Translations under genes and position numbers: made by a program | The notes under the pieces: model-generated | What the model saw: the letters and a program-made list of their open reading frames with translations, nothing else | Database searches by the model: none | Told to the model about the DNA's origin: nothing | Assembly (NCBI GenBank): GCA_003558065.1 | Contig: PWMU01000180.1 | Location: forward strand, 1 to 36,949 | Direction of reading: 5' to 3' | DNA: 36,949 bases | From: Opitutia bacterium | Lineage (GTDB): Bacteria > Verrucomicrobiota > Verrucomicrobiia > Opitutales > T3Sed10-336 | Shown here: piece after piece, positions 2,211 to 22,939 of the stretch | Numbering within the stretch: the stretch's first letter is position 1 | How the letters are laid out: each line of letters opens with the position of its first letter

Positions 2211-3116
2211 ATGTTCAACCGGAATATAAGAATGAAAATGGCGGCGGTGGGATTGATGGTCGCCGCACTGGCGGCTTTCAGCCCAAGCTTGGTTGGGGAC
2301 CCTGCTTCCGATGAACGCAAGGGAATTATTCAGGAGATCTCGGAGGGACTGAACGGAGATGTCTGGACGTTTACCGACGGCGTGGAAACTGTCACCGGCC
2401 CCGATCATGCCGTACGTGGCGGCACCCGTTCGATTCGCGGTGTTATCGGTCAAGGCGAGGACAGTTACCGGGCCGAGTACAATGCCCGTCGAGTCATCCC
2501 GGACAACGATTATTGGTACGGATGGAGTGTCTTTTTTCCTGAAGACATGCCGGTCGACGAAGATCATTGGGGAACAATATTCACCCAGTTCAAATTCTGG
2601 CCGAGAACGGGAATCGACGGAGAGAGTCTGCCCAGCGGAGGGCTTGGTACGCATTTGTATTTAGCGAGCTCAAGGCGTGGGGAGAGGGTGGGGCACCCAG
2701 GCACGCCGACCCTCAGAATGGTGCATCACTGGGAGGATATCGACAGCGATGTTGCGGGTGAGCGCGATATCAGGTACGAATCGTTCCTTATCAAAGCGGA
2801 GCCGGAACTTGGCGTATGGCACGACTTTGTGATGCACGTTAGGTGGAGTGCGGATGAAAGCGGCTTTCTGAAATTGTGGCACCAGGAGGACGATTCGGAG
2901 TACGAGCTTGTTGTCGATCGATCCGGCCCGACAATGTGGAAAAAGCAGCCCGAAGATCAGGGCCCTTTTTTCAGTGCGGGGCCTTATGCCCACGGATCGG
3001 TGGCTGCAAGGACCATCTACTCAGACGAGTTCCGGGCGGGAGACGCGACATCGAGCTTCGATGATGTGCGGCCCGACCGGGAAACCGCTTCTGGCGATGA
3101 GGATTCCGGTAACTGA
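2211..3116 (+). CDS. Secreted polysaccharide lyase-like protein (PF14099, heparin lyase I-type fold)
   Basis: About 301 residues from the ATG at 2211; another ATG at 2232 would also retain the signal peptide (hydrophobic run at residues 11-28). The segment YWYGWSVFFPEDMP near residue 100, followed by W-x-x-I-F-T-Q-F-K and later the GVWHDFVMHVRWS segment, is the pattern of the PF14099 polysaccharide lyase family. These are jelly-roll enzymes that include glucuronan/alginate-type and heparin lyase-like members and cleave uronic-acid polysaccharides by beta-elimination. The exact substrate cannot be read from the sequence. The C-terminal 25 residues are acidic and low complexity. It follows the jelly-roll protein by 14 bases in what looks like a two-gene glycan operon. 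Confidence 0.75.
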   Translation: MFNRNIRMKMAAVGLMVAALAAFSPSLVGDPASDERKGIIQEISEGLNGDVWTFTDGVETVTGPDHAVRGGTRSIRGVIGQGEDSYRAEYNARRVIPDNDYWYGWSVFFPEDMPVDEDHWGTIFTQFKFWPRTGIDGESLPSGGLGTHLYLASSRRGERVGHPGTPTLRMVHHWEDIDSDVAGERDIRYESFLIKAEPELGVWHDFVMHVRWSADESGFLKLWHQEDDSEYELVVDRSGPTMWKKQPEDQGPFFSAGPYAHGSVAARTIYSDEFRAGDATSSFDDVRPDRETASGDEDSGN

Positions 3117-3327
3117 TGGGCGCACTGGGGTTTTGACGGAATAAAAATTTTTTGCCCTGGCGAAGAGGGTCTGGAGCGAGCCCGTCAGTTCGGCGGCGAG
3201 GATCCCCGCCCCCCGAGGCGAAGAAGCGATGACCGATCCGGAGAATCATTGTGAATCCGTGAATTGTTATTATACCGCGCGGCATCAAGTTTTTGGATTC
3301 TGCTCCCCCTTCAAATGCAAGATCATT

Positions 3328-3401: not shown

Positions 3402-4214
3402 TCACAGCGGGAACAACCCTGCGAGCTCGTCGTCAGTAAGCTGTCTCCCGTATTCCGATAATTCAAACGTTTCGGCGAACTCAACCTCCGCGGCCCGGTC
3501 ACCATAACGTGCGTGGAGAAGATTCCTGAACCGCTCCGCCTGGATACGATTGCGCACCAGCCAACCGTCCTTCAACCATTGACGGCGTCCGGCGGGATCC
3601 TCGGGTACCTCGTTCAAACGCTTTTGCAGATAAGGCAGCCATTCGAAGAATTGCGATTCGTGACAACCGAGCATTTCCAGTTTCTCATCCAATACATCGT
3701 CGATTGCCACGGCGACCGCCGGATCATGCGGAAGCGGTTTCATGAACTTGTCCCACGAGAATAAAAATACCGGCTCCTTCTCGGGAACCGCGCTATCCGG
3801 ACACTCCAGAGGCACCGCAAGCAGAAACGAAGCATCCTGCACCAGTTGTGCCGTTGCCCGGTGATCCGCATGGTAGTCGCATAACCGGTGCGTGATGACA
3901 ACATCAGGCCCCAATGACCGGATCAACCGAATCAGGGCCTGACGGATTTCCAGATGCGGCTCCAGTTGGCAATCCGTGTAGGAGAGCACCCGGTACTCAA
4001 GATCGCAGGTCGCCGCCGCCCGGCGTGCTTCCTCGGCCCGCCTCTCAGCGGTCTGCTCCCGGGTCATCTCATGGTGTCCGCCGGAACCGTCGCACATTGA
4101 TATGAACACAACCCTGTGTCCGGCACGACGGAGTTTGACTGCACAACCTCCGAAAAGGATATCCGGATCGTCGGGATGGGCACCGATCATTACATAAGTT
4201 CTCTTTTCTGGCAT
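3402..4214 (-). CDS. PIG-L/LmbE family N-acetylglucosaminyl deacetylase-like protein
   Basis: 270 residues. The N-terminal AHPDD motif (residues 12-16) and the HADH motif (115-118) are the zinc-binding signatures of the PIG-L/LmbE family; His13, Asp16 and His118 are the expected zinc ligands and Asp15 the catalytic base. Family members remove acetyl groups from N-acetylglucosamine-containing glycans or small conjugates (for example MshB, BshB). No signal peptide is visible, so it is probably cytoplasmic. The length is typical. It lies downstream of the Gfo/Idh/MocA oxidoreductase on the same strand with a gap of 192 bases, so co-transcription is possible but not certain. The substrate is unknown; amino-sugar metabolism is a reasonable inference for this pair. 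Confidence 0.85.
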   Translation of the reverse strand: MPEKRTYVMIGAHPDDPDILFGGCAVKLRRAGHRVVFISMCDGSGGHHEMTREQTAERRAEEARRAAATCDLEYRVLSYTDCQLEPHLEIRQALIRLIRSLGPDVVITHRLCDYHADHRATAQLVQDASFLLAVPLECPDSAVPEKEPVFLFSWDKFMKPLPHDPAVAVAIDDVLDEKLEMLGCHESQFFEWLPYLQKRLNEVPEDPAGRRQWLKDGWLVRNRIQAERFRNLLHARYGDRAAEVEFAETFELSEYGRQLTDDELAGLFPL

Positions 4215-5582: not shown

Positions 5583-6116
5583 CTACTCGACGGTCATCAC
5601 TCCGACCATGCCGGCTTCGGTGTGTCCCGGGAAGGAACAAACGTAGTCGTAATCCCCGGTTTCCTCGGGAGCGCGAAATACAAGCGTGGCACTTTCTCCG
5701 GGTCCGAGGACGCGGGTGGAAGCGATAACGTCCCCCTCGCGTTCGGGTGCCACGTATTCGTTTCTAACGTGCCGTTGCGCGTCGCGCGCAAATTCAAGTT
5801 TGTCCACCCCTTGTTTGAGCACGACCAGATTGTGTCCCATCGATTCTTTCGGCATGCTCCCGACGTTGTTGAAGGTGATGGTGACGTGCTGGCCGGGCTC
5901 CACGGTAAACTCGGTCACGTCGAAACGCATGCGGTCGTCGCCGCCGATCTCGATCGAAAAGCCTTCTTCGCCCTCGGCAAGCGGTTCCACTTCAGGTGTG
6001 TCGGGGGCGGCAGCTTCGTCTTCTTCCGGTGCCTCCGGTGCTTCGGGTCCGCAAGCGGACAGGATCGCTCCCATTGCGATGAGAGTGAGGAGTTTCATTG
6101 GGTTTGGTGTATTCAT
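5583..6116 (-). CDS. Azurin/plastocyanin-like type 1 copper lipoprotein
   Basis: 177 residues. The N-terminus has a hydrophobic segment ending in a lipobox (ILSAC, Cys22), then an acidic Pro/Glu/Ala-rich linker to about residue 50, then a cupredoxin domain. The type 1 copper ligands of azurin are all recognisable: His95 in GHN, Cys160, His165 and Met170 in the CSFPGHTEAGM segment. It should be a membrane-anchored periplasmic electron carrier. It lies 31 bases downstream of the Sco gene in the same direction and diverges from nosZ, so donating electrons to NosZ, or to a terminal oxidase, is a plausible but unproven role. Met7 is an alternative start and would not change the mature protein. Confidence 0.9.
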   Translation of the reverse strand: MNTPNPMKLLTLIAMGAILSACGPEAPEAPEEDEAAAPDTPEVEPLAEGEEGFSIEIGGDDRMRFDVTEFTVEPGQHVTITFNNVGSMPKESMGHNLVVLKQGVDKLEFARDAQRHVRNEYVAPEREGDVIASTRVLGPGESATLVFRAPEETGDYDYVCSFPGHTEAGMVGVMTVE

Positions 6117-6147: not shown

Positions 6148-7068
6148 TTATTGTTCCTGCAGAAGGCTTTCCGCCGCTCCGATGACATCATCGGCCGACC
6201 AGGTGTTCCCGCGCCAGATTTTTTCCAGCCGACCGTCCGGGCCGATCAGAACCGTGGCCAGGGCGTGGTCGATATTCGCGGATTCCGCGTCATCTTCAAT
6301 GTAAACGGAAAACCGCGTGGTAAGCTCGTCGATCCGGTCGCGTCCGCCGGTGGCGAAAGTCCAGTTTTCCGTGTTGTCGGTGTAACGGGCCGCGTAGTCA
6401 TTAAGCACTTCGGGCGTGTCGTACTCCGGGTCGATGGTCACGCTGACCAACTGAATGTTGCCGTGGAGATCCGGGTGCTCGGCGGCCCGCTCCTGGATAG
6501 TCTGGAAACGCTCGGACATTAGCGGGCAGAAATCCGGAACCGGGCACCGCGTGAAAATAAAGGTCATGGCGATCGCGCGTCCCTCAAACTCATGAAAATA
6601 AAACGGCTCATCGTCCTGGTTGACCAATCTGAAACTCGGAATAGTGTCTCCCTCCTCAAGCCGGGGAATCCGCGGGTCCGCCGGGCGGCGTCGTCCCTCG
6701 CCGGCGGGGGAAGGGGATACGGCGTCGTCCTCAAGTTTCTCCATCCGGTCGATAAAAGACTCCCGACCCCGGACCACGTAGCGGAATCCCACGGCGTCGC
6801 CCGGTTCCAACCCCTCGACCAGCCCCGCTTCCTTCAGGTGGAAGGGCATGGTCATTGCCGGCATGAATCCGGGAATTTCCTCATGCTCGATGTTGATGGT
6901 TTCCCCGTCGTCGGGAATGCTTCGGACCCGGCCCTTGACTTCGAAGACCTGTTCGTCCGGCTCGATCGCCTCCCCGGTGGATTCCCGCTCCACATCGCCA
7001 CAGCCAGACAAGAGGGCCGCAAAAATTGCCGCAAGCGGCAGAATGCTCTTTGCGAGGAATGCTTTCAT
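6148..7068 (-). CDS. CusF-like copper-binding domain fused to SCO1/SenC thiol-copper chaperone, lipoprotein
   Basis: The start at 7068 is chosen because a GGAA element lies 8 bases upstream and the protein then begins directly with a lipoprotein signal (LLSGC, Cys23); an in-frame ATG at 7095 would add nine residues. The protein has about 306 residues. Residues 41-112 resemble a CusF-type copper-binding domain with the Met-rich IPGFMPAMTMPF segment. Residues 140-303 form the thioredoxin-fold Sco domain with Cys175 and Cys181 (spaced CX5C rather than the classic CX3C) and the conserved His268. Sco proteins deliver copper to CuA centres. Here the gene is first in a minus-strand pair with the azurin-like gene and diverges from nosZ, whose product carries CuA. 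An FNR-like palindrome sits just upstream (7109-7122). Confidence 0.9.
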   Translation of the reverse strand: MKAFLAKSILPLAAIFAALLSGCGDVERESTGEAIEPDEQVFEVKGRVRSIPDDGETINIEHEEIPGFMPAMTMPFHLKEAGLVEGLEPGDAVGFRYVVRGRESFIDRMEKLEDDAVSPSPAGEGRRRPADPRIPRLEEGDTIPSFRLVNQDDEPFYFHEFEGRAIAMTFIFTRCPVPDFCPLMSERFQTIQERAAEHPDLHGNIQLVSVTIDPEYDTPEVLNDYAARYTDNTENWTFATGGRDRIDELTTRFSVYIEDDAESANIDHALATVLIGPDGRLEKIWRGNTWSADDVIGAAESLLQEQ

Positions 7069-7108
7069 TTTGAATGTTCCAGTTTTATGCGTCATGCTGC
7101 GAAATTCC

Positions 7109-7122
7109 TTGAGTCAGATCAA
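7109..7122 (-). promoter_or_regulatory. FNR/DNR-type palindrome upstream of the sco-azurin operon
   Basis: On the plus strand the site reads TTGAG-TCAG-ATCAA, one mismatch from the CRP/FNR-superfamily consensus TTGAT-N4-ATCAA. Its centre is 47.5 bases upstream of the proposed sco ATG (7068). An A/T-rich candidate -10 on the minus strand near 7082-7089 would put the site about 40 bases from the start of transcription, typical of an activating position, but would leave a very short leader. The regulator is not encoded in the window. Confidence 0.5.
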
Positions 7123-7266
7123 TTTTGCGGATAAAAGTTCCGTAAATGCGGAAGGAGTGCCATGACAGGGAGGTAGGGAGTCCCGATCCGCAGATCCTGT
7201 GATCCGGTTATCACTCATTCTTTTAGCCGTCCGTTCAAACCATTCCTTGGAGAATTCTTCACTAAT

Positions 7267-7280
7267 TTGATCCAGGTCAA
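7267..7280 (+). promoter_or_regulatory. FNR/DNR-type palindrome of the nosZ promoter
   Basis: TTGAT-CCAG-GTCAA matches the TTGAT-N4-ATCAA consensus at 9 of 10 positions. A -10-like hexamer TACACT lies at 7302-7307, which predicts transcription from about 7314-7315 and places the palindrome centre at about -41, the standard position for activation by FNR-like regulators at class II promoters. The leader to the nosZ ATG would be about 89 bases. Spacing is seen; activation by an oxygen- or NO-sensing regulator is inferred. Confidence 0.65.
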
Positions 7281-7402
7281 GGCCGGGCTTTTCGATTTTC
7301 CTACACTTTAACGCAGAAATAGCGAGTGCGGTTCGCGACGTCAAGCGTCGTGCGTGCCGTGCTTTCACCAAAAAACCTGACTAACTGAAAGAAATAGACC
7401 CT

Positions 7403-9301
7403 ATGAAACCTGCTAACCAAGAACGAACCCTCAAGTGGCCCGCTTTTCTGGCGGCGCTGCCCCTCTTCGGCATTCTGGCGGCCTGTGCCCCGGACGACGA
7501 GGTCCGACGTGCCGACGGGGAGTCTCCCGCCGAACAATCCTACGTGGCTCCCGGCGACTTCGACGATTACTACCTGTTTTACTCGGGGGGACACTCAGGC
7601 AACGTTTTTGTCGCCGGAATTCCTTCTATGCGGCATATCGTGACGATCCCTGTGTTCACCAAGTACCCGGGCAAGGGATACGGCTATGATGAAGTCACGA
7701 AGGAACATTTGGGCGACTTCACCTGGGGGGATATTCATCACCCGGCCTTGTCCAAGACGGACGGCATGTACGACGGCCGCTGGCTCTTTGTCAACGACAA
7801 CGCTCACAACCGGATCGCGCGAATCGACCTGCGGGACTTCAAAGTGAAACAGGTCCTCGGGCCGATTCCCAACACCAGCGGCAACCACGGCTCCTCGTTC
7901 GTGACCGAGAACAACGAGTATGTCATGGGTGGCACGCGATTTTCCGTGCCGCTCCCCAAGGGGACCTACGCGCATCCGAGCGACTATGAAGACGAATTCA
8001 ACGGGGTGATCACCGGGATCAGTGTCGATCAGGAGACCGGGGAAATGGAGGTCGGCTGGCAGGTGCTCACGCCGCCGTTCAATTGGGACCTCTCCTCAAC
8101 CGGCAAAGGGCCGAGCCAGGACTGGGCGTTTTTCACCTCCTACAACACGGAGATGGCCCACACGGTGCTCGAAGTCAACGCCAGTCAGCTCGACCGGGAC
8201 CTGGGGGCGGCGGTCAACTGGCGCGCCGCGGAACAGGCCGTAGCCGATGGCAATTACACGGAGATCGACGGGGTTCCGGTAATCGATCCGGCCGAGGTGC
8301 CCGGTGTGATGTACTTTATCCCGATCGGGAAATCCCCTCACGGAATGGACACCACGCCTTCCGGTGAATGGATTGTCGCGGGAGGAAAGCTGCAGCCATC
8401 GGCCACCGTATACAGTTTTGAAAGAATGATGGCGGCCATCGAAGCCGAGGATTTCGAGGACGAGAAGAGGGGAGTGCCGGTTCTCAATTACAACAGCGTC
8501 GTCGAAGGGGAAGTGCCCGTGGGGCTGGGACCGCTTCACACGCAATTCGACGGCCGGGGCAACGCCTACACCTCGATGTTTATCGATTCCCAGGTCGCCA
8601 AGTGGCGGCTTCCGCCCTGGAGCGACGAGGAGAAGGAGGATCTCGAGAGTGTTGTGGTGGACAAAATTGATGTTCACTACAATATCGGTCACTTGGTCGT
8701 CGGCGGCAGCGATACAAAGGAACCCTACGGGGACTGGCTGGTGGCGATGAACAAACACGCGGTGGGGCGTCACATCAAGGTCGGGCCCGGAATCCCGGAA
8801 ACCAGCCAGCTCATCGACATTTCCGGCGAAGAGATGCATATGGTCAAAGAAGCGTTTACCGACAAGGAACCGCATTTTGCCCAGATCCTGCGTGCCGATG
8901 CGATCGATCCCATCGAAGTTTATCCGAGGGCCGAAAACGATCACCCCCAGGCCATCTGGGATTTTGACGATGCCGAAGTGACCCGCAACGGAGACGAGGT
9001 GGAGGTCCGGATGATCTCCATACGCAGTCGCTTTGTTCCGGATGTGATCGACGCCCGGGTTGGCGACACGATCACCTTCCACATTACCAATACCGAGCAG
9101 ACTCCGGGCATGACCCACGGTTTCGGTATCGGGGAAATGGACATAAGCGGCAACATTGATCCGGGCGAGACCAAGACCTACAAGGTGGAATTGGATAAAC
9201 CCGGGGTGTTTCCGTTTTACTGTACCGTCTTCTGTTCGGCGCTCCACCAGGAGATGCAGGGTTACCTGTCGGTTGCTCCCGCGGCAGAGGACACGGAATA
9301 G
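7403..9301 (+). CDS. nosZ: Nitrous oxide reductase, clade II (atypical), lipoprotein-type signal
   Basis: 632 residues. It reduces N2O to N2 in the periplasm, the last step of denitrification. The N-terminus lacks a twin-arginine motif and instead has a Sec/lipoprotein signal (GILAAC, Cys28), typical of clade II enzymes. The beta-propeller carries histidines in the positions expected for the seven CuZ ligands: His112 and His113 (DIHHP), His135, His253, His313 (SPHGMD), His379 and His452. The C-terminal cupredoxin domain has the CuA motif C607-x3-C611-x3-H615-x2-M618; the residue that is Trp in clade I enzymes is Val here. It is divergent from the Sco/azurin operon, has an FNR-type box about 130 bases upstream, and is followed by a strong hairpin and the nosB-like, nosD, nosF and nosY genes. 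Confidence 0.97.
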   Translation: MKPANQERTLKWPAFLAALPLFGILAACAPDDEVRRADGESPAEQSYVAPGDFDDYYLFYSGGHSGNVFVAGIPSMRHIVTIPVFTKYPGKGYGYDEVTKEHLGDFTWGDIHHPALSKTDGMYDGRWLFVNDNAHNRIARIDLRDFKVKQVLGPIPNTSGNHGSSFVTENNEYVMGGTRFSVPLPKGTYAHPSDYEDEFNGVITGISVDQETGEMEVGWQVLTPPFNWDLSSTGKGPSQDWAFFTSYNTEMAHTVLEVNASQLDRDLGAAVNWRAAEQAVADGNYTEIDGVPVIDPAEVPGVMYFIPIGKSPHGMDTTPSGEWIVAGGKLQPSATVYSFERMMAAIEAEDFEDEKRGVPVLNYNSVVEGEVPVGLGPLHTQFDGRGNAYTSMFIDSQVAKWRLPPWSDEEKEDLESVVVDKIDVHYNIGHLVVGGSDTKEPYGDWLVAMNKHAVGRHIKVGPGIPETSQLIDISGEEMHMVKEAFTDKEPHFAQILRADAIDPIEVYPRAENDHPQAIWDFDDAEVTRNGDEVEVRMISIRSRFVPDVIDARVGDTITFHITNTEQTPGMTHGFGIGEMDISGNIDPGETKTYKVELDKPGVFPFYCTVFCSALHQEMQGYLSVAPAAEDTE

Positions 9302-9376: not shown

Positions 9377-9390
9377 TTGTTTTCAATCAA
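9377..9390 (+). promoter_or_regulatory. FNR-like palindrome upstream of the nosB-like gene
   Basis: TTGTT-TTCA-ATCAA differs from TTGAT-N4-ATCAA at one position. It lies after the nosZ hairpin and 61 bases upstream (from its last base) of a CTG codon preceded by AGGAA. A promoter here would let nosB-D-F-Y be expressed apart from nosZ. No convincing -10 hexamer was found at the matching distance, so this is tentative. Confidence 0.35.
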
Positions 9391-9417: not shown

Positions 9418-10062
9418 TTGCAAGCATTCCTTAAGAAACAGGAAATTTTTCTGAGCAAACCGCTCAATCTGTGGTCGCGCCTCTGTCTGGTCCTTGCCGC
9501 GATCTGCATGGGAGCCACTTTCTTTTTTCCCCTCTGGGAGATCCGGCTGGTGGCTCCGCAGTATCGTGACGGCCTGGAGCTCTACATATATTCGTATCAA
9601 CTTCAGGCCGGCAACGACGGCCAGCATCTCGACGAAATCAACCTGCTCAACCACTATATCGGCATGCAGCCGATCCGCGAAGCCGATTTTGTTGAAATGA
9701 CCTGGATCCCGTTTGCTTTCGGCATCTTCATCCTCCTGTCGTTGAGAGGCGTTGTGTTCGGCCGCATGGGCAACATCGTCGATCTGTTCGTGCTTTTTCT
9801 GTACTTCGGCATCTTCTCCATGGCCAACTTCTACTACCGTCTATACAGTTACGGGCACAATCTCGATCCGACCGCGCCCATGACCATCGAACCGTTTACC
9901 CCGGTATTGATGGGGAAGAACCGGATCGCCAATTTCATACAGTACAGCTACCCCGATGTTGCCAGTTATTTTCTGATCGCCTTCGGGGTGCTTCTGGTGG
10001 TTGCGGCGGTCCTTTCCGTTCGCGAAAAGCCGATCGTTCCGGAATCGCACACAACCGCCTGA
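9418..10062 (+). CDS. nosB: NosB-like integral membrane protein of clade II nos clusters
   Basis: Up to 214 residues with four predicted membrane helices (about 20-38, 96-112, 118-140 and 181-200) and an exported loop of roughly 55 residues after helix 1 that includes NHYIGMQP. Genes for such a protein next to nosZ are a known hallmark of clade II nos clusters (nosB of Wolinella-type loci); its biochemical role is not established. The assignment rests on position, size and topology. Start choice is uncertain: the first usable codon is TTG at 9418 without a ribosome site, whereas CTG at 9451 has AGGAA six bases upstream and would give a protein starting SKPLNLW after the initiator. The longer frame is listed. 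The gene sits between nosZ and nosD. Confidence 0.7.
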   Translation: MQAFLKKQEIFLSKPLNLWSRLCLVLAAICMGATFFFPLWEIRLVAPQYRDGLELYIYSYQLQAGNDGQHLDEINLLNHYIGMQPIREADFVEMTWIPFAFGIFILLSLRGVVFGRMGNIVDLFVLFLYFGIFSMANFYYRLYSYGHNLDPTAPMTIEPFTPVLMGKNRIANFIQYSYPDVASYFLIAFGVLLVVAAVLSVREKPIVPESHTTA

Positions 10063-10120
10063 AGCCGGAACTCGAACCTGGCCGGGATGGCTGCAATAAC
10101 TTTCATATACCGATTGTACC

Positions 10121-11458
10121 GTGAACAAGAGAGTCAACAACCGCTGCCGCCTCAAGGCGGCGACAGTCTTCGCCGGGCTGCTTGCCGTTTCGGTGTCGGC
10201 CGGCGAGCCTTCTCTTCAGGAACGCATCGACGCGGCCTCCCCGGGCGACGAGATCGTGGTTGACGGCGGTGTCCACCAGGGGAACCTGCTCGTTGATCGG
10301 CCGCTTACGCTTACGGGAATCGACCGGCCGCACATCAAAGGGGACGGCGACGGGCACACCGTGGCGATTCGTTCCGAGGGAGTAACCCTGCAGGGGTTCA
10401 GGATCACGGATTCCGGCCTGAATCTTTCCGCCGATCACGCCGCGGTCCATGTGAAAGCCGCAAATGCCCGTATCCGGGACAATGATATATCCGAGGCGCT
10501 CCACGGCATCTACGTGCACGGAGTCGGAGGAGTTCGCGTCGAGGGGAATCGTATCCGGGGCATCGAAGTTACCGAGGCCGGCAATATCGGGGCGGCTGCT
10601 CCCGCCTCGCTCGGGTCCGGAGATCTCTGCTCAGTCTCGCGCGACCGGCGCGGCAACGGTGTCCACTTCTGGAACTCCAGCGGAAATTCAATTGTCGGAA
10701 ACGAAATTTCGGGGGTTCGTGACGGAATCTACTTCTCGTTCACCCGTGAGAGCCGGGTGGAACGGAATCTGGTCCGGGACGCACGGTACGGGCTGCACTA
10801 CATGTATTCGGATCGAAATTACTTTTCCCGGAACCGTTTCACGGAGAACGTCGCCGGAGCCGCTCTCATGTTTTCGAAGGAGGTGGTGGTACGTGACAAC
10901 GACTTTGTCGACAACCGCGGATCCCGCGCTTACGGCCTTCTCCTGCACAACGTCGATTCTTCGACGATCGAGAACAACCGGATGAAGCGCAACCGCGTCG
11001 GTTATTACATGCAGAACAGTCACGCCAACACGGCCCGCCGCAACCATTTTGTGTTGAACTACATCGGCCTCCGCCTCACATCCAGTTCAACCAGCAACCT
11101 TTTCAGTTACAACGAGATTGGACGCAACCTGCACAACATTTCCCTGGCCGGGCGCGACAACAGCAATGAATGGGCTGAAAACGGTGTCGGCAACCGCTGG
11201 CTTGATTCCCCGACGCTCGACCTCGACGGCGACGGGGTAAGCGCGCTCCCTCACCGGGAAGTCGACGTTTTCGGCGGCACTCGGGATGATTTTCCGTTTG
11301 TTGCCTTCCTTTCGGAAAGTCCCGGTATCAAGGCCCTGCGGTTCGCCCTGCAGCGGTCGCCCGTCCCCGATACCCACTTCATCACCGACTCCCGGCCCCT
11401 TGCGCCCGGATCGCGCCATTCCGTTTCCGATACGCTCGAAGCGCGCCGCAATCGATGA
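10121..11458 (+). CDS. nosD: NosD, periplasmic parallel beta-helix copper-site maturation protein
   Basis: 445 residues from a GTG start at 10121, which gives a basic N-region and hydrophobic signal peptide with cleavage near residue 27 (SVSA-GEP). Residues about 45-350 are built of short repeated coils with N-x-I and G-I-Y/H motifs (for example HGIYVHGVGG, DGIYFSF), the NosD/CASH-type right-handed beta-helix. NosD works with the NosF-NosY ABC transporter in the assembly of the tetranuclear CuZ centre of NosZ. The stop codon overlaps the nosF start (ATGA), so translation is probably coupled. The length is close to that of known NosD proteins. Confidence 0.95.
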   Translation: MNKRVNNRCRLKAATVFAGLLAVSVSAGEPSLQERIDAASPGDEIVVDGGVHQGNLLVDRPLTLTGIDRPHIKGDGDGHTVAIRSEGVTLQGFRITDSGLNLSADHAAVHVKAANARIRDNDISEALHGIYVHGVGGVRVEGNRIRGIEVTEAGNIGAAAPASLGSGDLCSVSRDRRGNGVHFWNSSGNSIVGNEISGVRDGIYFSFTRESRVERNLVRDARYGLHYMYSDRNYFSRNRFTENVAGAALMFSKEVVVRDNDFVDNRGSRAYGLLLHNVDSSTIENNRMKRNRVGYYMQNSHANTARRNHFVLNYIGLRLTSSSTSNLFSYNEIGRNLHNISLAGRDNSNEWAENGVGNRWLDSPTLDLDGDGVSALPHREVDVFGGTRDDFPFVAFLSESPGIKALRFALQRSPVPDTHFITDSRPLAPGSRHSVSDTLEARRNR

Positions 11459-12132
11459 TCGACGTCCGCAAGCTCAGCAAAAGTTACGGTCGCGCGACCG
11501 TTCTGGACGAGGCCGATCTTTCGGCCGAGCCCGGGGAGATCACACTGCTGGCGGGCGATAATGGGGCGGGAAAATCGACAACCCTGAAGATCCTGGCGGG
11601 ATTGATTCGCCCGACCTCGGCGGAGCGTCTTCGGGTGGACGGAATCGATGTGCGGCAGCGCCGGCAAGCCCAGACCCGGATGGCCTACCTTCCGCAGGGA
11701 GCCTCGTTCCATCCTGCCATGACCCTCGCACAAATCCTGGGCTTTTACGGACGCCTTCGCGATGTCTCCGCGGAGCGAATTGAGAATCTGTTGAACACAT
11801 TCGAGCTCGGCGCGTTTGCGGGCCAACCCGTACGCGAGCTCTCGGGCGGTATGGTGCAGCGTATCGCCCTGGCGGTTCTGTTCCTTCCCGATGCTTCCGT
11901 TTTGCTCGCCGACGAACCGGTGGCCAGCCTCGATCCCGATTGGCGCGATCGCCTTCAGGTTCTGCTGCGCCGGGAGGCCGCGAACGGGAAAACGATCCTT
12001 GTCGCCACGCATTTCCTCGAGGAGTGGGGCGACGACCGGGACAAGGTGTTGTTCTGTCGCCAGGGGCGTTTTCTTCCGGACGAACGGCAAACCGGCAAAT
12101 CCGTCCACGCCAACCCCGGCCGCATTTCATGA
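11455..12132 (+). CDS. nosF: NosF, ABC transporter ATP-binding protein for NosZ maturation
   Basis: 225 residues. All ABC ATPase motifs are present: Walker A GDNGAGKST (34-42), signature LSGGM (129-133), Walker B ending in DEP (153-155) with D-loop Asp160, and a switch His in ATHF. NosF powers the NosDFY complex, which supports copper-sulfur cluster assembly on NosZ. The protein is clearly shorter than the roughly 300-residue NosF of Pseudomonas and ends soon after the nucleotide-binding domain, so it lacks the extra C-terminal region of the clade I proteins. The start overlaps the nosD stop and its stop overlaps the nosY start (ATGA at both junctions). Confidence 0.95.
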   Translation: MIDVRKLSKSYGRATVLDEADLSAEPGEITLLAGDNGAGKSTTLKILAGLIRPTSAERLRVDGIDVRQRRQAQTRMAYLPQGASFHPAMTLAQILGFYGRLRDVSAERIENLLNTFELGAFAGQPVRELSGGMVQRIALAVLFLPDASVLLADEPVASLDPDWRDRLQVLLRREAANGKTILVATHFLEEWGDDRDKVLFCRQGRFLPDERQTGKSVHANPGRIS

Positions 12133-12914
12133 CGTCCCGCATGTCCACGTTCACCGCTTTCTTCCGACGAGAGTTGCGCACCTGTTTCCGGAACCGGTTT
12201 CTGCACGTATTTGCGGTTCTCGGCCTGTTGTGCGGACTCGGAATCGTTTTTTTTTCGCCCTCGGCAGGTTCCATTCCCTTCCTGCACCTGCAGGCGATCC
12301 TTTACCTGTTTCCGCTCTTCGGTTCCCTGATCGGAATCAGTTCCGCGCATGGGGAGCTGGAGGAACAGTCCCTCCTCCTCAGCCAGCCCGTTTCGCGCCT
12401 GGCCTGGGCGTCGGGAAAGGCGGCCGCGCTTGCCCTGGTGTTCGGCGCCGTGCTTTCGCTGGTTTTTATTCCGGCTTTGTTTGCGGGAACTTCCTTCTTT
12501 CGCCTTCTGGGTCTGTGGGCCCAGGGGGCATCTCTCGCGGCTGTGTTTGTAGTGATGGGTCTCGCCGTCGGGTTCTCCACCCGCGAACGCGTCCGGGGCC
12601 TCATCTACGCGCTTCTTCTCTGGCTCTTCTTTCTGGTCGGCTTCGATCTTCTCGCCTTCGCCGGCGCGCAGACCGCGTTCTTTCGTGAAGCGCCCGTTCT
12701 CTGGCTTGCCATTCTTCTCTTTAATCCCGTCGACGCCGTCAGGATTTCGGCCCTGTTTCAACTCGAGGACATTCCTTTTCAGGTTCCCGGCGACGCCGCT
12801 GTTGTGGCCTTCTGGATCGACAACCTGCTGGTGTGGAATTTTATTCTGGCCGGCCTTTGGATCGCGGCGCTCCTGGCCTGGAGTCGATTTCGCCTCGAAC
12901 GCGCGCGTCCCTGA
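12129..12914 (+). CDS. nosY: NosY, ABC transporter permease for NosZ maturation
   Basis: About 261 residues from the ATG at 12129, which overlaps the nosF stop. An ATG at 12141 is an alternative. The protein is very hydrophobic, with about six membrane helices starting near residue 27, and a cytoplasmic EEQSLLLSQPVSR segment near residue 80. The corresponding segment of ABC-2/NosY permeases contacts the ATPase. With NosD and NosF it forms the NosDFY maturation complex in the inner membrane. It is the last nos gene in the window: no nosL, nosR or cytochrome gene follows, and the next gene is convergent, 127 bases away. Confidence 0.93.
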   Translation: MTSRMSTFTAFFRRELRTCFRNRFLHVFAVLGLLCGLGIVFFSPSAGSIPFLHLQAILYLFPLFGSLIGISSAHGELEEQSLLLSQPVSRLAWASGKAAALALVFGAVLSLVFIPALFAGTSFFRLLGLWAQGASLAAVFVVMGLAVGFSTRERVRGLIYALLLWLFFLVGFDLLAFAGAQTAFFREAPVLWLAILLFNPVDAVRISALFQLEDIPFQVPGDAAVVAFWIDNLLVWNFILAGLWIAALLAWSRFRLERARP

Positions 12915-22591: not shown

Positions 22592-22939
22592 CCGGTCATC
22601 TTTCCACGTTTTCGAACGGAGGGAAAGGACAATGAGCCCGGGAGTTGATTTGAATCAAACCATCCGAAGTTCTCCGCCGGCGCCGCGAATGGCTGTCGAC
22701 TGGCAAAAGCACGATTTGCCGTGGATCGAACAAGGGGTGCGCGGACATTTTTAGTCGCGGGGAGTAGTGTGGAATTTCACTCCGGATGTGATGATTCACA
22801 CGGAACTCAGGTTTATTCAGACGTGCAGGACAAAGGAAACATTGCCAACCCCTTCCGCCCGGAACTTGTCGCGGGGATCCGCAAGGGCCGATCAGGCCCC
22901 TGATAATTGCTTCGCGTTTCAAAAGGGCGATTCACCCTC
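22592..22939. other. Intergenic region between divergent NMO-fabV operon and radical SAM gene
   Basis: This 348-base stretch has no supportable gene. It holds the ribosome site of the NMO-like gene (GGAAAG on the minus strand), an exact FNR-type palindrome at 22645-22658, and the start region of the B12-binding radical SAM gene. Between about 22700 and 22930 nothing further was recognised. Confidence 0.5.
22645..22658 (-). promoter_or_regulatory. Exact FNR/DNR-type palindrome upstream of the NMO-fabV operon
   Basis: TTGAT-TTGA-ATCAA is a perfect match to the FNR-family consensus and is nearly fully palindromic. At equal base frequencies an exact match would be expected about 0.04 times in a window of this size. 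The centre is 60.5 bases upstream of the NMO ATG, which is compatible with an activating site near -41 and a leader of about 20 bases, although no good -10 hexamer was seen at that distance. It is 281 bases from the divergent radical SAM gene. Confidence 0.65.

Follow-up and report, generated by a model that had tools for sequence, protein, structure and literature searches.

Paired DNR-type boxes between sco and a clade II nosZ point to a probable NO-responsive regulon in Verrucomicrobiota

The DNA analyzed here (the window, a stretch of 36,949 nucleotides from an Opitutia bacterium of the order Opitutales) carries a nitrous-oxide reductase cluster and, divergent from it, genes for two putative copper proteins. 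The genes on the two sides are as follows:

5583–6098, minus strand: azurin-like cupredoxin downstream of sco, a putative electron carrier (PF00127)
6148–7068, minus strand: sco, a lipoprotein-like CusF-SCO1/SenC fusion, a putative copper chaperone (PF02630 and PF11604)
7403–9301, plus strand: nosZ, a Sec-dependent (clade II type) nitrous-oxide reductase (TIGR04246, 808.6 bits, cut-off 625)
9418–12914, plus strand: the rest of the nos cluster (a membrane protein that matches no Pfam family, nosD, a nosF-like ABC ATPase and a nosY-like membrane protein)

Against the TAT model NosZ reached 449.7 bits, below the cut-off of that model, and its nearest named relative is the NosZ of Opitutaceae bacterium EW11 (65% identical). 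The azurin-like protein matched TIGR02695 at 77 bits, below the cut-off of 105. The sco product, originally described as a putative copper chaperone, can be specified further as a CusF-SCO1 fusion. Its start at 7068 is the choice of a codon-usage gene caller, the longest open reading frame starting at 7095.

The 334 nt between sco and nosZ (47% GC) hold two 14-bp palindromes, TTGAGTCAGATCAA at 7109–7122 and TTGATCCAGGTCAA at 7267–7280, each of which departs from TTGAT-N4-ATCAA at one of its 10 positions. Positions and matches are those given in the original prediction. In this region 0.018 sites with at most one mismatch are expected, and two or more arose in only 3 of 20,000 dinucleotide shuffles; the whole window has five such sites against 0.84 expected, a number reached in none of 100 shuffles. 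A CRP-type (TGTGA-N6-TCACA) match and a NorR-type match in the region have two mismatches each. When the palindromes of the window were scored with a matrix of 39 boxes, all taken from outside it, the one at 7267 ranked first and the one at 7109 third:

7109–7122, minus strand: DNR/FNR-type box facing sco-azurin, TTGATCTGACTCAA in the sco direction (matrix score 16.8 on the minus strand, 14.5 on the plus strand)
7267–7280, plus strand: DNR/FNR-type box facing nosZ, TTGATCCAGGTCAA (24.3, the best matrix score in the window)
9377–9390, plus strand: a third, weaker palindrome, TTGTTTTCAATCAA (matrix score about 12.9)

Both intergenic boxes score higher when read toward the gene that they face. 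The center of the nosZ box lies 129.5 nt before the nosZ start codon, and that of the sco box (7115.5) lies 47.5 nt before the sco start codon at 7068, a distance that had been predicted and that holds with the start picked by the gene caller. (The third palindrome sits between nosZ and the next nos gene, which begins at 9418, and its role is uncertain.)

Candidate -10 elements are found on both sides:

7302–7307, plus strand: -10 element TACACT of the nosZ promoter, beginning exactly 21 nt after the box
7082–7087, minus strand: possible -10 element of the sco promoter, TAAAAC, also 21 nt from its box; it does not match TANNNT and is therefore weaker

For nosZ, the predicted start would be at about 7314, with a leader of about 89 nt and the box center near -41, just as had been proposed from TACACT; for sco, it would be at about 7075, with a leader of about 7 nt. 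Of 43 upstream boxes, 23 are followed by a TANNNT at an offset of exactly 21 or 22 nt, and the nosZ element is one of these; among 92 intragenic controls there are 4 such cases. None of the 43 has the motif at an offset of 20 or 23, and over offsets 20–23 the comparison is 23 of 43 upstream boxes against 5 of 92 intragenic ones (Fisher P 7e-10), where the 43 come from the window genome and its relatives and include orthologous promoters, so that not all are independent. As judged from these motifs, the layout is that of a class II activator. At many promoters only 43–47 nt (about 44) separate the box center from the start codon, which leaves a predicted leader of just a few nucleotides (0–7 nt), the leader of nosZ being an exception. 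When leaderless expression was looked for across the genome, genes without a box showed no clear -10 peak near their start codons. Shine-Dalgarno-like motifs are scarce: in the stretches of the genome that were read, 137 genes have long upstream gaps, and 19 of these carry such a motif.

Which protein would recognize these boxes? The original prediction presupposed an FNR-family regulator, and the genome of the window (4.13 Mb, 97% complete) does encode one clear CRP/FNR protein, which is DNR-like. This protein, on contig C140, is the only one above the HTH_Crp_2 cut-off, and its matches to PF13545 (55.6 bits) and PF00027 (77.9 bits), both above cut-off, are those of the CRP/FNR fold; two other cNMP-binding matches in the genome have no HTH_Crp_2 match. 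Its best match in the PDB is Pseudomonas aeruginosa DNR (3dkw) at 119 bits, followed by one at 82 bits, with the FNR type at about 61, a likeness measured by bit scores against solved structures. Neither the sequence nor the alignment has an N-terminal [4Fe-4S] cysteine cluster of the FNR type. The recognition helix, CTGESLSR, aligns with PETFSR of DNR and has the E..SR residues for TTGAT. The histidine at position 139 of DNR has been considered for heme binding (PMC8510549), and no histidine stands opposite it in the alignment; a second histidine considered for this role, just before the recognition helix (GHL/SHL), is aligned.

Of 132 related genomes, 9 have nosZ and 24 have the regulator. 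The regulator is present in 8 of the 9 nosZ genomes and in 16 of the 123 others (Fisher P 3e-6, uncorrected for kinship), and the sole nosZ genome that lacks it is an 82%-complete assembly. In three of the genomes (G087, G046 and G039) no more than about 6 kb separate it from nosZ. In the window genome, the dnr gene adjoins another azurin-like gene. Short repeats from the dnr contig (L077, about 3020–3150 and 3450–3530) have matches at many places in the congener G002 and at some in the congener G001, which suggests that they are dispersed repeats in the genus.

Boxes of this type occur elsewhere in the genome. TTGAY-N4-RTCAA is present 22 times, against 12 and 5 times with N3 and N5 spacing; these spacing controls were chosen because a reversed pattern is unfair, its letters forming rare words (TAG, CTA). 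Fifteen of the 22 N4 sites are intergenic, against 4 of the 17 controls, and the roughly one third of N4 sites inside genes are probably chance matches. Boxes precede genes for a NirK-type protein (C92), RIC/YtfE, hemN, a DUF2249 protein and a small cupredoxin, an azurin-nnrS operon divergent from a B12-type ribonucleotide reductase, an atypical, NO-reductase-like heme-copper oxidase operon (C88), the PfaD/FabV pair and an AMP-binding ligase. Going by the annotated products, the set of nirK, the NO-reductase-like oxidase, nosZ, azurin-nnrS, RIC/YtfE, hemN and DUF2249 reads like a denitrification regulon.

Some of these genes are unusual in themselves. The NirK-like protein (L075, 13611–15746) is 711 aa long, combines an extended N-terminal part with an amicyanin-like domain at the C terminus, and matches the nitrite reductase model below cut-off. 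The boxed oxidase operon (L078, 9682–13685) encodes a COX1-family and a COX2-like protein together with a membrane protein of 499 aa that has no Pfam match. The active-site helix of the COX1-family protein reads GHQSQQVN at the place where oxygen reductases have a GHPEVY-like motif, and because of this replacement the oxidase is possibly an atypical NO reductase. In the window itself, a perfect TTGATTTGAATCAA at 22645–22658 stands ahead of the PfaD-like/FabV gene pair, and the PfaD orthologue of G001 has a box as well (L176, 2534); since both carry a box, these fatty-acid enzymes may belong to the regulon.

The arrangement at nosZ recurs in relatives. A box directly precedes the azurin-nosZ operon in all six order-level relatives that have nosZ; in five it lies outside called genes, and in the sixth (G114) it overlaps the opening codons of a divergent open reading frame, the called start of which was judged too early. 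In one relative (G041) the region between sco and azurin-nosZ contains a pair of boxes, just like the sco/nosZ region of the window. A box again precedes azurin-nosZ in all three named Verrucomicrobiota loci, which come from Opitutaceae bacterium EW11, a Chthoniobacterales genome and an uncultured Opitutaceae genome that has two boxes. In the window, where the azurin gene accompanies sco instead of nosZ, a box is nonetheless present on both sides. The main evidence to the contrary comes from the two congeners. Neither congener has a box with at most one mismatch in its sco/nosZ region: the best in G001 has two mismatches (TCGATGATCGTCAA) and faces nosZ, and the best in G002, where the regulator is present, has three and faces sco. 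Good boxes are kept by G001 at nirK, azurin, the oxidase, the small cupredoxin, PfaD and a PEGA-domain protein, and by G002 at the oxidase, the cupredoxin, RIC and DUF2249/dnr. Among 75 nosZ loci from many phyla, N4 boxes occur in 10 and other spacings in 4–7; outside Verrucomicrobiota the boxes are thus near background, and the claim is not extended across phyla.

It is quite likely that the two palindromes are operators of an NO-responsive, DNR-type CRP/FNR activator, which would switch on nosZ and sco-azurin jointly. From the sequences, their spacing, enrichment, co-occurrence and conservation, we infer that the regulator binds the boxes and activates from them, with NO as the signal. The DNR-type protein would be activated, most likely through NO, and the active dimer would occupy each box at about -41.5 and help RNA polymerase to start at the -10 elements 21–22 nt further on. 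The result would be nosZ on one side and, on the other, sco-azurin for copper delivery and electron transfer, while elsewhere the same regulator would act on nirK, the NO-reductase-like oxidase, azurin-nnrS, RIC and hemN. Of the earlier proposal that one oxygen- or NO-sensing regulator switches both transcripts, the joint control is thus supported in silico (a sole DNR-like regulator, motif enrichment, class II spacing and recurrence), and the signal is likely to be NO through a DNR-type protein, rather than oxygen through an Fe-S FNR. The degenerate boxes at sco/nosZ in the congeners, the weak TAAAAC element of sco, the N4 sites inside genes and the lack of a histidine opposite position 139 of DNR speak against this explanation.

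Could the boxes be genuine and the regulator nevertheless answer to oxygen limitation or general anaerobiosis, as the FNR of its lineage? This is unlikely: the protein resembles DNR much more than FNR (119 against about 61 bits), it lacks the N-terminal cysteine cluster, and its recognizable targets are mostly linked to NO (nnrS, RIC, nirK). On the other hand, hemN and the B12-dependent ribonucleotide reductase, which are useful without oxygen, carry boxes, and a search of the genome found no second CRP/FNR protein. That the palindromes are chance matches or inactive relics, with nosZ expressed without them, is very improbable in view of the shuffle statistics, the exact spacing to the -10 element and the same arrangement in distant members of the order, even though each box has one mismatch, some N4 sites elsewhere lie inside genes and both congeners have degenerate boxes. 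The least probable of the alternatives is that one or both boxes are repressor sites. In Nitrosophilus labii, where such control of nosZ is suggested, a Crp/Fnr gene and clade II nosZ are reported to correlate negatively (PMC11539149), but here the box is spaced from the -10 element as at class II activated promoters and does not overlap it.

E. coli FNR combines a TTGAT-N4-ATCAA box, a class II position and the E..SR residues of the recognition helix; the system described here has such a box and such residues, and a class II position is predicted from its -10 spacing, whereas the present regulator is without the [4Fe-4S] cysteine cluster. The preferred, DNR-type reading has its closest counterpart in Pseudomonas and beta-proteobacteria. 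For the DNR regulon of Proteobacteria, Rodionov et al. 2005 (PMC1274295) gave CTTGATnnnnATCAAG as the box and named nir, nor, nos, nnrS and dnrN as its members. The box is the same, including the preference for flanking C/T and A/G, nirK, nosZ, nnrS and dnrN/RIC are shared core targets, DNR is the nearest regulator by sequence, and the predicted geometry is likewise of the activator type. The present case differs in its phylum, in the Sec-dependent nosZ with a CusF-SCO fusion and azurins, in that no second FNR/ANR was found in the genome, in the additional PfaD/FabV, B12 ribonucleotide reductase and AMP-binding ligase, and in the very short predicted leaders at many promoters. In Campylobacterota (Wolinella, Nitrosophilus), there are likewise Nss-type Crp/Fnr proteins, with TTGA-N6-TCAA sites upstream of a clade II nosZ, but several Nss paralogues are present and negative control is suggested in Nitrosophilus (PMC11539149), compared with one DNR-like protein and predicted activator geometry here. 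FixK2 and NnrR of Bradyrhizobium are also CRP/FNR activators of nos and nir genes, but act in a two-tier cascade on a clade I nosR-nosZ, whereas a single regulator was found here (PMC5582078, PMC6710368). A literature search of partial coverage found no earlier report of a DNR-type regulon in Verrucomicrobiota. Given the match to the regulon of Rodionov et al., this is therefore probably a known type of NO switch that is new for Verrucomicrobiota, as far as the literature was searched.

Tentatively, and with rather more doubt than confidence, one may go further and suppose that the lone DNR-type protein has become the master anaerobic switch of this Verrucomicrobiota lineage, which would combine jobs of FNR (hemN, B12 ribonucleotide reductase, the enoyl reductase FabV with PfaD) with denitrification, through nearly leaderless mRNAs. 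Outside Proteobacteria, bacteria that reduce N2O with a clade II NosZ are important N2O sinks, and little work has been devoted to how their nosZ is controlled. One regulator, one box and one spacing rule together predict which genes an Opitutales bacterium would turn on along with NosZ. The probable link between nosZ and NO hints at when N2O would be produced or removed by such bacteria, and makes the prediction directly testable.
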